A stretch of 64,000 nt of DNA from Myxococcales bacterium SG8_38. Lineage in GTDB: Bacteria > Myxococcota_A > Polyangia > Polyangiales > Houyiibacteriaceae. The stretch spans positions 1 to 64,000 of the forward strand of contig LJTN01000022.1 of the NCBI GenBank assembly GCA_001303415.1, written 5' to 3'. The notes under the pieces are model-generated. The model ran no database searches and had not been told where the DNA came from. It saw only the letters and a program-made list of their open reading frames with translations. This document shows, piece by piece, positions 44,690-60,217 of this stretch (its first letter is position 1; the number at the start of each line of letters is the position of its first letter). A program made the position numbers and the translations under genes.

Positions 44690-45070
44690 ATGTCCGTGGC
44701 AGCCGCCAAGACCACGCCCGACGCAGCCGATGTGGTGAGCAAGGCGCTGTTTCGCGCCGCCGAGTCATTGGGGCTCTCCTCGGCTGAGCTCGCGGAGATC
44801 ATCGGAACCAGCGAGTCGACGTTGTCGCGCATCCGAAACCGCAAGCGCGATCCGATTCCCCTGGGCAGCAAGGAAGGCGAGCTCGCGCTGTTGTTTCTGC
44901 GTGTCTTCCGGAGCCTCGATGCGCTGGTAGGGGGCAACGAGGCGCACGCCAAGGCCTGGTTGCACGCAAACAACCATCATCTGGGAGGAGCTCCGCTTCG
45001 GCGCATGAAGAAGATCGAGGGGCTGGTCGATGTCGCCGAATATCTGGACGCAATGCGCGGAACGATTTGA
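44690..45070 (+). CDS. Xre/MbcA/ParS-like antitoxin
   Basis: A 126-residue protein: an N-terminal helix-turn-helix (LGLSSAELAEIIGTSESTLS) and the C-terminal MbcA/ParS/Xre toxin-binding domain (LHANNHHLGGAPLRRMKKIE, ending EYLDAMRGTI). Together with the RES gene it forms a type II toxin-antitoxin module. GGAGTCTGGC lies before the ATG. The last 41 bases also encode the toxin start in another frame. Repeats of TTGCAAT upstream probably form its operator. Confidence 0.88.
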   Translation: MSVAAAKTTPDAADVVSKALFRAAESLGLSSAELAEIIGTSESTLSRIRNRKRDPIPLGSKEGELALLFLRVFRSLDALVGGNEAHAKAWLHANNHHLGGAPLRRMKKIEGLVDVAEYLDAMRGTI

Positions 45071-45797
45071 GCTCGTACGGATCGGCGGCACCCCATGGCG
45101 CGCCGTCGAATCGCAGCACGTGGCTTCGACCCGCAAGCTGGTCGATTCGGACGACGAGCAAGAGACGCTCGAAGCGTTGATCGACTCGGCCAAGCCGCCA
45201 TGGCCGAAGGGCCGCCGCTTCGTCGGCCTGCACTATCTATTGGCGACGCCTTTTCGGCATCCCCCGCTCCGGTACGGATCCCGCTTCGGCACCCGGCGCG
45301 AACGCGGCATTTTCTACGCGGCCGAGACGCATTCGACCGTGTTCGCCGAAAAGGCGTACTACGTATTGTTGTTCTTGGAGGGCACGGAGGCGGACATCAC
45401 CCCGTTGATGCGGCCCCTGACCGTGTTTCAGGTGCGCATCTCGACGAAGAAGGGCGCTGACCTCACGAGCCCACCCTTCGATGCGTTTCGCGCGCGGATC
45501 TCTTCACCGGTCAGCTATGGCGATTCGCAGCCGCTCGGCGCGGCGATGCGCGAGGCAGGTGTTGCGGGCTTTTGGTTCGTGTCGGCGCGCGACCCGCGCA
45601 GCGGTGTGAACGTCGGCTTGTTCGAGCCCGTATTCACGACGAAAAGGCCCCTCAATGCGGAGCAGTGGATCTGCACGGCGACGCGCACCCGTGTCGAGAT
45701 GCGGCCGGGGCCCGCCGTATTGCGTGAACGGACGAGCTTTGCTCGGAGCGTGTTCGAGATCGACGGCGTTTTGCCGGCTCCCAGCGCCTTGGCGTGA
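45030..45797 (+). CDS. RES-domain toxin
   Basis: A 255-residue RES domain protein. The conserved Arg, Glu and Ser of the family are visible in GTPWRAVESQH, GTRRERGIFYAAETHSTVFA and, later, FRARISSPVSYGDSQPLGAA. RES toxins degrade NAD+. The ATG at 45030 follows GAGGGG by seven bases and lies within the antitoxin gene, so toxin translation is coupled to it. Length is a little above typical RES toxins. It ends seven bases before the convergent membrane-protein gene. Confidence 0.88.
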   Translation: MSPNIWTQCAERFELVRIGGTPWRAVESQHVASTRKLVDSDDEQETLEALIDSAKPPWPKGRRFVGLHYLLATPFRHPPLRYGSRFGTRRERGIFYAAETHSTVFAEKAYYVLLFLEGTEADITPLMRPLTVFQVRISTKKGADLTSPPFDAFRARISSPVSYGDSQPLGAAMREAGVAGFWFVSARDPRSGVNVGLFEPVFTTKRPLNAEQWICTATRTRVEMRPGPAVLRERTSFARSVFEIDGVLPAPSALA

Positions 45798-47238: not shown

Positions 47239-47700
47239 CCTTCGGAGCGCACCGCGGTCGAGGAGAAGAGCTCGATTTCTGCGAGCGGCATCTTGAATCC
47301 AGATCTCGCCGGGAATCCGGTTGCCGATTGGGATGTGGTGTATTTGCCGTACTGCGACGGGTCGCTCTTCGCAGGAGACGTCGATCGGATGTTGCGGGGA
47401 AGCCTGCTCAGCGGAGCCGGCGCCCCGAGCATGGGTTATCAACGCGGCCTACAGAACCTGACCGCAGCCCTCGACATTGCCGTCACGGAGTTTCCGAGCC
47501 CGAGCCGAATCCTGTTGACGGGCGTGAGCGGGGGCGCCTTCGGCACCTTGCTCCGCGAGACCTCCGAGGGCGGCGATCCGGGAGTCGAGCTCGGCAGCCT
47601 CGACACGGAGATCGACGGCGTCACCGTGCTCGATTGGCTCACGGCGATGATCGAGGGCACGGCCGCCTGGGACGACCTGGTCGATCCCAGCGTGCAATAG
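47239..47700 (+). pseudogene. Remnant of a pectinacetylesterase/Notum-family hydrolase
   Basis: The frame is open from a stop at 47236 to TAG 47700 (first start TTG 47293), yet it begins in the middle of a domain: DWDVVYLPYCDGSLFAGD, then GYQRGLQNLTAALDI and the nucleophile elbow LLTGVSGGAFGTLL, then directly the C-terminal DWLTAMIEGTAAWDDLVD. In pectinacetylesterases the WNYVFVPYCTGD-like block is preceded by a long N-terminal part, and about 100 residues separate the elbow from the end; both are missing. The gene has thus lost its start and an internal segment. Confidence 0.55.
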
Positions 47701-47762
47701 ACTCCATCGAGCCAGGCCGCCGCGGGTCGCTTTTTCGATTGACCGCAAGTGCACCCTCCGCC

Positions 47763-47784
47763 AAAATAGAACACGTTCTATTTT
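47763..47784. promoter_or_regulatory. 22-bp palindromic operator (TetR/KstR-like) upstream of the flavin oxidoreductase
   Basis: Arms AAAATAGAAC and GTTCTATTTT are perfect complements around AC, 12 bases before the ATG of the oxidoreductase. The core TAGAACACGTTCTA fits the TnnAACnnGTTnnA consensus known for the TetR-family sterol regulator KstR of mycobacteria; many TetR operators look similar. No TetR gene is in the window. Confidence 0.6.
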
Positions 47785-47795
47785 TAGGTGGTGGC

Positions 47796-48929
47796 ATGAA
47801 GACCGAGATCTGTAAGCGCTTGGGGATCGAGTTTCCGATTTTTGCGTTCAGCCATTGTCGCGACGTGGTTGCGGCGGTGAGCAGGGCCGGCGGCCTCGGG
47901 GTATTGGGGGCGGTGGCGTACAGCCCCGAGCAGCTCGAGCTCGAGCTCAAATGGATCGACGAGCACGTCGACGGCAAGCCTTACGGCGTCGACACCGTCA
48001 TCCCCGCCAAGTACATCGGCAAGGACCAGGGCGACATCACCAAGGATCAGCTCGAGCAGATGATCACGCCTGCGCACCGCAAGTGGATCAACGACCTGCT
48101 CGACCGGCACGGCGTGCCTCCGCTTCCAGACGACGTGCAACAGATCGACGGCCTGCTCGGCTGGTCCGCATCTGGCGGCCGCGCGCATTTCGAGGTCGCC
48201 ATGAAGCATCCGATTGCGCTGATCGCCAACGCGCTCGGGCCGCCTCCCGAGGACATCATCAGTCAGGCCCACGACCGGGGCGTGATGGTCGCCGCGCTGT
48301 GCGGCACCGTGGCGCAAGCGATCAAGCAAAAGAATGCAGGAGTCGACATCGTCATTGCTTCCGGCTACGAGGCGGGCGGCCACACCGGGGAGATCGGGTC
48401 GATGGTCCTCTTGCCGCAGGTCGTCGATGCGGTCGCTCCCACGCCGGTGCTTGCCGCCGGCGGTATCGGCTCGGGCCGCCAAATGGCCGCCGCCATGATC
48501 ATGGGAGCTGCAGGCGTCTGGACGGGCTCGATTTGGCTCACGACCGAGGAGTCCGATTCGATTCCCGCGCTCATCGACAAGCTGCTCGTCGCCGATTCGA
48601 CCGAAACGGTGCGGTCGCGCTGCATCAGCGGCAAGCCCGCCCGTCAGCTCAAGACCGAATATACCCGCGCATGGGAAGAAGACCCGGAGTGCCCCGGCTA
48701 CCTGCCGATGCCGCTTCAGTTCATGGCCACCGCCGAGGCGACGCAGCGAATCACCCGCTTCGCCCAGAGCGGCGCCGAAGGCTCGGCCGCGCTATTGGGG
48801 ACCCCGGTCGGCCAGGTCGTCGGTCAGATGAAGACCCGAAAGCCCGCGCGCCAGGTCGTCGAGGAGATGGTCAGCGACTACATCGATGCGGTCGAACGGG
48901 TCTCGAAGCTCTTGGCCGAGTCCGAATGA
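47796..48929 (+). CDS. Nitronate monooxygenase-like NAD(P)H-dependent flavin oxidoreductase
   Basis: A 377-residue FMN-binding TIM barrel: IFAFSHCRDVVAAVSRAGGL at the start, ALCGTVAQAIKQKNAGVDIV, ASGYEAGGHTGEIGSMVLLP and PVLAAGGIGSGRQMAAAMIM, the phosphate-binding block of the NMO family. The family oxidises nitronates or reduces enones and acyl-CoA-type substrates. ATG 47796 follows AGGTGGTGG; the 670-codon ORF would overrun a promoter and a pseudogene. It is preceded by a strong palindrome and ends 11 bases before a convergent TPR gene. Substrate unknown; the operator suggests a sterol or fatty-acid context. Confidence 0.85.
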   Translation: MKTEICKRLGIEFPIFAFSHCRDVVAAVSRAGGLGVLGAVAYSPEQLELELKWIDEHVDGKPYGVDTVIPAKYIGKDQGDITKDQLEQMITPAHRKWINDLLDRHGVPPLPDDVQQIDGLLGWSASGGRAHFEVAMKHPIALIANALGPPPEDIISQAHDRGVMVAALCGTVAQAIKQKNAGVDIVIASGYEAGGHTGEIGSMVLLPQVVDAVAPTPVLAAGGIGSGRQMAAAMIMGAAGVWTGSIWLTTEESDSIPALIDKLLVADSTETVRSRCISGKPARQLKTEYTRAWEEDPECPGYLPMPLQFMATAEATQRITRFAQSGAEGSAALLGTPVGQVVGQMKTRKPARQVVEEMVSDYIDAVERVSKLLAESE

Positions 48930-51454: not shown

Positions 51455-52249
51455 CTACAGCACAAATGGAATGATCGCTCGGCGTTCTTTCGGGTAATCG
51501 CCGAAATGCTCCTGATACCAGCGATGGTTGGAAAATGCGCGCGGAACGAGATTCATGGCCGTAAACCAAGCGAAGACCGCGGCGGGCACGGTCCATGCCG
51601 CCAGGGCAAATCCCGTCCATTCGATGATTTCCCCGAAATAGTTTGGGCTCGAGACCCATCGGTAGAAGCCGCCGCAGGGGATCTTGTAGCCGCTTTCCCC
51701 CGGTTTTCGGAGGTTTCGCAGGATGGCGTCGGAGTGCTGATTGATGACGTAGCCGGTTGCGAACACCAGCATGCCCACGATGAAACGCGGGTCGGCCATC
51801 CAGCTCGTTTGCAACAAGTGAGGCGCGAGCTCGGTGATGGCGAACGCGTTCGTCGACCCGTTGGCCGTGTTGAATCCAAAGGCGAGGACACCCGTGATCA
51901 GCGGCTCTTGCTTGTGGCCGCCTCGCATCCGAAAGGGGTAGATGAACGAGCGATACACGTAGTGCAGCATGAACATGCCGAAGAGGATCAGAGGAATCAC
52001 GGCGAACGCGTTGTCCGACATGAAGTACACGACGGCGAACGAGATGGGAGACGGCGCCTCCATGATCACCCAAAGCGCTTTGGCGTTGAGCGTCGGGCCC
52101 CAACCGGGGCGGACGTGACGGCCGTAAGGCGCGGAGATGAACAAGAGAAGGAAGAAGCTCACGATGCCCAGCACGACCACGCCAAGCACGGTCCAGGTGT
52201 AGAGGGGATGGGCCCGCAGGGATTCGCTGAACGCTTCGGTGATGGGCAT
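51455..52249 (-). CDS. Steroid 5-alpha-reductase (SRD5A) family protein
   Basis: A 264-residue protein with seven membrane helices, normal for SRD5A. The C-terminal NADPH-binding core is close to the animal enzymes: HSDAILRNLRKPGESGYKIP, SSPNYFGEIIEWTGFALA and the ending GDYPKERRAIIPFVL; earlier, HYVYRSFIYPFRMRGG matches the substrate-side motif. The enzyme reduces the 4,5 double bond of 3-oxo-4-ene steroids with NADPH. Bacterial homologues are known from Proteobacteria. ATG 52249 is preferred over the 518-codon ORF in another frame. The window shows no other steroid gene apart from a possible KstR-like operator at 47763. Confidence 0.9.
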   Translation of the reverse strand: MPITEAFSESLRAHPLYTWTVLGVVVLGIVSFFLLLFISAPYGRHVRPGWGPTLNAKALWVIMEAPSPISFAVVYFMSDNAFAVIPLILFGMFMLHYVYRSFIYPFRMRGGHKQEPLITGVLAFGFNTANGSTNAFAITELAPHLLQTSWMADPRFIVGMLVFATGYVINQHSDAILRNLRKPGESGYKIPCGGFYRWVSSPNYFGEIIEWTGFALAAWTVPAAVFAWFTAMNLVPRAFSNHRWYQEHFGDYPKERRAIIPFVL

Positions 52250-60078: not shown

Positions 60079-60217
60079 GGGGAGAGGCTCTACGGCCCTA
60101 ACTGTCCGAGATCTAGCCGGTTCCAGGCTAGAGGTCCGCCGCACCTCCGGTAGACTCCGCTCCTTCTGGGTAAAAAGCCTTTGAATCTCGCACGATTACG
60201 GGTATGGAACCTGTTCG

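Follow-up and report, generated by a model that had tools for sequence, protein, structure and literature searches.

A predicted KstR-type operator in front of an NMO-family flavoenzyme gene and of steroid-degradation genes in a Myxococcota genome

A 22-bp palindrome in a genome of the Myxococcota very probably serves as the binding site for a KstR-like repressor; judging from sequence, this repressor would control a flavin enzyme gene together with about 18 other promoters of steroid degradation. Earlier descriptions of the KstR control system come from mycobacteria and related actinobacteria. Computation reveals the site, its recurrence and conservation, the set of genes behind it and a KstR homologue. 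The palindrome lies in the window, the stretch of 64,000 nucleotides that we analysed, which sits on contig C75 of a 3.62-Mb draft genome (G000). The features around it, in window coordinates, are:

47739-47767, plus strand: sigma-70-like promoter TTGACC-17-CAAAAT (consensus match only; 1 found, shuffles mean 0.0)
47763-47784, no strand assigned: 22-bp inverted repeat AAAATAGAAC-AC-GTTCTATTTT (read from the sequence, palindrome count)
47767-47780, no strand assigned: predicted 14-bp KstR-type operator TAGAACACGTTCTA (motif match, genome recurrence, orthologue conservation)
47786-47791, plus strand: probable ribosome-binding site AGGTGG, 4 bp ahead of the ATG (inferred from the sequence)
47796-48929, plus strand: NMO/FabK-family FMN oxidoreductase of 377 aa, putative regulated gene (Pfam, NCBIfam, PDB, orthologues in relatives)

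The palindrome had been described in an earlier note, and re-reading the sequence returns it exactly as claimed, with perfect ten-base arms around a central AC (AAAATAGAACACGTTCTATTTT in full). Its 14-bp core fits the palindrome TnnAACnnGTTnnA with the core TAGAAC(N2)GTTCTA, by which the KstR operator is defined (PMC1995591), so the claimed match to the KstR consensus also stands. The assertion that the repeat is far beyond chance in 64 kb fails: with perfect arms of at least 10 bases and a loop of up to 10, one occurs in the window and 0-5 in dinucleotide shuffles, and with a loop of exactly 2 such repeats are present in 2 of 12 shuffles. Since shuffles produce equal palindromes, we dropped rarity as evidence; the significance of the site comes from the recurrence and conservation of its motif, not from palindromicity alone. 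A loose search of the window with TnnAACnnGTTnnA gives one further match, at 60205 (shuffles give 0.20). This match, TGGAACCTGTTCGA, where an ACT-domain gene begins, does not belong to the RR/YY class that the regulon sites form, and is taken as chance. The ATG of the NMO-family gene lies 16 bp past the core, and the -10 hexamer of the promoter overlaps the left end of the operator.

Genome-wide, the control yields 20 loose TnnAACnnGTTnnA matches where the genome has 33, so most of these are background, and we therefore used the stricter pattern TRRAACRYGTTYYA. It has 18 exact sites in the genome and none with the reversed-pattern control; the variant TAGAACAGGTTCTA at C24:5552 brings the total to 19. 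The site in the window is thus not unique: 18 further promoters carry the same sequence class, and the exact core TAGAACACGTTCTA is found one more time in the genome. None of the 19 sites is within an ORF, and each has a predicted start no more than 200 bp downstream of it; the distances are approximate because the starts come from a simple script. By contrast, 8 of the 10 loose-only matches are inside ORFs.

The genes behind the sites, named by Pfam and NCBIfam, constitute a predicted 9,10-seco steroid catabolic gene set. Four KshA_C Rieske oxygenase genes are among them, two as the first gene after a site (C10 and C15), one farther along the C10 run and one in a run on C73. Further members are a KshB-like reductase, a 3-ketosteroid dehydrogenase (KstD), a flavin reductase, an HsaA homologue (415 bits, below the cut-off of 450), an HsaC-related extradiol dioxygenase, and a hydratase, an aldolase and an acetaldehyde dehydrogenase of the HsaE/F/G type. 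SCP2, ChsH2, thiolases, FadD and a P450 are also among them. Sites also head genes of an aldehyde dehydrogenase, a GMC oxidoreductase, an enoyl-CoA hydratase, a CoA transferase and beta-oxidation enzymes, and an operon of the echA20-ipdA type (echA20/CoA-transferase). The motif hence recurs before sterol and lipid catabolic genes throughout the genome, as the suggestion of a lipid or sterol regulon including the NMO-family gene had implied. Some divergent neighbours, coding for a deformylase, PdxJ and Hsp70, are probably bystanders; the site at C68:2455 (L011) lies between the pdxJ gene and that of a PaaX-like regulator. A steroid 5-alpha-reductase homologue, to which the earlier note had drawn attention, is real (51455-52249, PF02544, 5.1e-50); it has no operator, and its place in the regulon is unsupported.

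Of 18 genus members, 17 keep the operator ahead of their orthologue of the NMO-family gene, with the same 14 bp in all 17 but differing flanks and at a distance of 0-77 bp to the start, and it also precedes the orthologue in G027. Counting against conservation, it is absent upstream of the orthologue in the genus member G003, and the orthologues of G022 and G046 have no site directly upstream of their own. In a scan of a genome collection, 38 of the 80 homologues listed (51-94% identity, mainly Actinomycetota) have an operator match within 250 bp upstream, and only 5 matches fall elsewhere in these loci. In Actinomadura and Streptosporangiales a spacing of about 31 bp between match and start is frequent. 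In many genus relatives (L046-L048, L055 and others), the stretch from the operator to the NMO start contains another inverted repeat, aaaaggggactgtcccctttt; absent from this place in the window genome, it looks like a dispersed repeat.

Among relatives, the number of operators per genome largely tracks the presence of an NMO orthologue. Genus members have 10-20 sites each, G022, G027 and G030 have 12-24, and G046 has 18; the other genomes have 0-4, mostly 0-1. Over the 284 Myxococcota genomes, operator-rich members are patchy and spread across several families. The association of operator and NMO gene requires at least 8 changes on a tree and has therefore been repeatedly gained or lost.

As the earlier note had supposed, a TetR-type regulator is encoded elsewhere in the genome. 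Among 22 TetR_N matches, the product of C73:46040-46687 (L034), outside the window, is by far the nearest to M. tuberculosis KstR, with an E-value of 5.9e-26 against 3.1e-13 for the next TetR; the KstR sequence used as query matches the PDB chain wherever the two align. Searches of the PDB with L034 are independent of that query and have M. tuberculosis KstR as top hits, at 1e-22 and, in a profile search, about 1e-31 (9e-32). The AlphaFold model of L034 (pLDDT 83) gives KstR chains, including complexes with DNA and with CoA ligands, as its first 17 Foldseek hits. KstR thus constitutes its closest solved relative over the full length. The gene ends a run SCP2-ChsH2-thiolases-FadD-KshA headed by the site at C73:52743, with kshA adjoining it.

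In other Myxococcota families, KstR homologues with an operator just before their own start are found twice in G046 and once in G047; in G046 kshA follows a kstR homologue, and the NMO orthologue stands beside the kstR-kshA pair. Three observations count against the assignment: no operator lies directly before the start of kstR in the genome studied here; family members with as few as 0-4 sites also encode KstR-like TetRs, 53-57% identical and with a very similar recognition helix; and no KstR homologue was found in the operator-bearing genomes G001, G009, G011, G013, G014 and G030, several of which are incomplete. In family relatives (L100, L101 and L222-L224; genomes G032, G026 and G023), KstR-like TetR genes adjoin KshA_C Rieske or FadL/TodX-like genes, and lone operators precede KshA_C Rieske genes. 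G023, which has a KstR-like TetR and no large regulon, carries a single perfect operator, TAGAACATGTTCTA (L074/L217), right before a sterol methyltransferase gene, where a squalene-hopene/oxidosqualene-cyclase-like gene ends.

The KstR idea of the earlier note is thus supported, the palindrome being neither unique in the genome nor unconserved upstream of orthologues. We consider it highly probable that the core in the window is an operator of the KstR-family TetR of C73, which would repress as a dimer, be released by a CoA thioester and co-regulate a sterol catabolic regulon; binding by this protein, the repression and the inducer are what we infer, as is the enzyme reaction discussed below. 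Without inducer, the dimer would sit on TAGAACACGTTCTA and cover the -10 region and the start of the NMO-gene promoter. Since the TTGACC-17-CAAAAT promoter ends inside the operator, a bound dimer would block transcription; the same block by bound KstR has been proposed for mycobacterial kstR itself (PMC1995591). A sterol side-chain intermediate, as its CoA thioester, would then free the promoter of its repressor, and the flavoenzyme would be made along with the rest of the regulon that shares the operator.

It is improbable, though worth weighing, that operator and steroid regulon are real and the repressor is a different protein, either another TetR or the PaaX-like regulator that has a site in its own promoter. 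The number of TetR_N matches, the position of the PaaX-like gene beside C68:2455, the missing operator directly before kstR and the persistence of KstR-like proteins in relatives nearly devoid of sites all leave room for it. Against this stand the gap in similarity between L034 and the next TetR, the KstR homologues directly beside operators in other families, and PDB searches with six other TetRs, none of which has KstR among its hits at E <= 1e-10. Far less credible still is a chance palindrome, or a terminator or hairpin of the upstream gene, with no regulatory role for the NMO-family gene. Chance alone would be expected to give the window palindromes of this length, but the same 14 bp precede 17 of 18 genus orthologues, motif matches precede homologues in distant phyla, and 18 other promoters, most of them of catabolic genes, have the site. 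Moreover, a search for a terminator-like site at 47600-48000 found none, and the palindrome is kept although the upstream gene is here an internally deleted remnant.

The flavin oxidoreductase that the earlier note had seen downstream belongs to the NMO family of flavoproteins (Pfam PF03060, 7.8e-48; 164 bits against a gathering cut-off of 28). Its best relatives in PDB and NCBIfam are FabK enoyl reductases, at 154.6 bits well under the FabK equivalog cut-off of 453.1. Its AlphaFold model (pLDDT 45) was left out of the analysis. The enzyme probably performs either an FMN-dependent redox step at a C=C bond of a steroid-derived CoA thioester, in the manner of IpdC and FabK, or, as a nitronate monooxygenase, the detoxification of by-products. 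The redox role is our preferred guess. IpdC is itself an NMO/FabK-like flavoprotein which, with IpdF, dehydrogenates a ring-D CoA thioester (PMC5380842), and a paralogue of IpdC type lies in the ipd run of this genome (C73:56795-57898), which argues that the NMO family serves ring-D dehydrogenation here. A true nitronate monooxygenase, acting on propionate 3-nitronate or the like as a protective member of the regulon, remains a live rival, somewhat less likely than not to be correct. The Pfam match favours it, as does the KstR target Rv1894c, described as an NMO in a title cited by PMC9323177; the FabK relatives, even though below the cut-off, and the ipd-run paralogue speak for the IpdC-like role.

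In vitro, a 29-bp stretch of Rv1894c/Rv1895 used as probe is bound by M. tuberculosis KstR (PMC1995591), which speaks for the proposed operator. Rv1894c and the gene in the window are both NMO-family genes with a KstR site, a predicted one in the window, likened by family and not by one-to-one orthology, and the gel shift is positive for Rv1894c. With the KstR regulon of M. tuberculosis and M. smegmatis (Kendall et al. 2007, PMC1995591), the genome shares the operator TAGAAC(N2)GTTCTA, including its TGAAAC and TAGAACAGG variants, a predicted TetR of KstR fold, and operator-headed kshA, kstD, hsa, chs-type and NMO genes. It differs in host phylum (Myxococcota here, Actinomycetota there), in that kstR ends an operator-headed operon instead of standing behind its own operator, and in that ring C/D genes are also under a KstR-type operator. 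In mycobacteria these belong to the KstR2 regulon, with motif AnCAAGnnCTTGnT (PMC3068626). The echA20, CoA-transferase, NMO-family IpdC-like, acyl-CoA dehydrogenase, FadA6-like and FadD3-like genes of that regulon (Kendall et al. 2010, PMC3068626; Crowe et al. 2017, PMC5380842) have counterparts here, whereas AnCAAGnnCTTGnT is at background (9 sites, 6 in the control), and it is a KstR-type site, TGAAACGCGTTTCA, that lies 29 bp from the start of the run of echA20 and ipdA-like CoA transferase. A site also precedes echA20 in G014, G030 and G046 (L088, L076, L103). KstR2 is absent from the PDB hits at E <= 1e-10 of the six other TetRs searched.

What differs from mycobacteria is the phylum, a new one, and the placing of ipd genes under a KstR-type site without an excess of KstR2 sites; a literature search combining KstR with Myxococc or Deltaproteobacteria found no relevant paper. 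By computation, the mycobacterial KstR operator, its regulon and an obscure NMO-family gene are a unit common to different phyla, which argues for a conserved role of the NMO gene in sterol catabolism and bears on Rv1894c, a KstR target reported as needed for M. tuberculosis virulence. For uncultured myxobacteria, this predicts a life of sterol degradation by the 9,10-seco route; in a metagenome survey of 2018, complete gene sets were found only in Proteobacteria, which then included the Deltaproteobacteria, and Actinobacteria (PMC5790920). Tentatively, and with rather less than even confidence, we suggest that in Myxococcota one KstR-family repressor serves the sterol pathway in full, from the side chain through rings A/B to rings C/D (the last in contrast to mycobacteria), and that in those family relatives that make sterols a close homologue of KstR may instead have sterol biosynthesis or uptake under its control. 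The latter reading comes from the operators before the sterol methyltransferase gene of G023 and the KshA_C Rieske genes of G026 and G032, and from the FadL-like or KshA_C neighbours of kstR. If true, the regulator would have switched between making and eating sterols.

Two minor observations concern the window itself. The remnant upstream of the operator (47293-47700, plus strand) lacks its N-terminal part and is internally deleted, the full-length protein in G012 having 416 aa; the operator downstream of it is retained. At 44690-45797 (plus strand), an Xre/MbcA-like antitoxin and a RES-domain protein form a probable toxin-antitoxin module.
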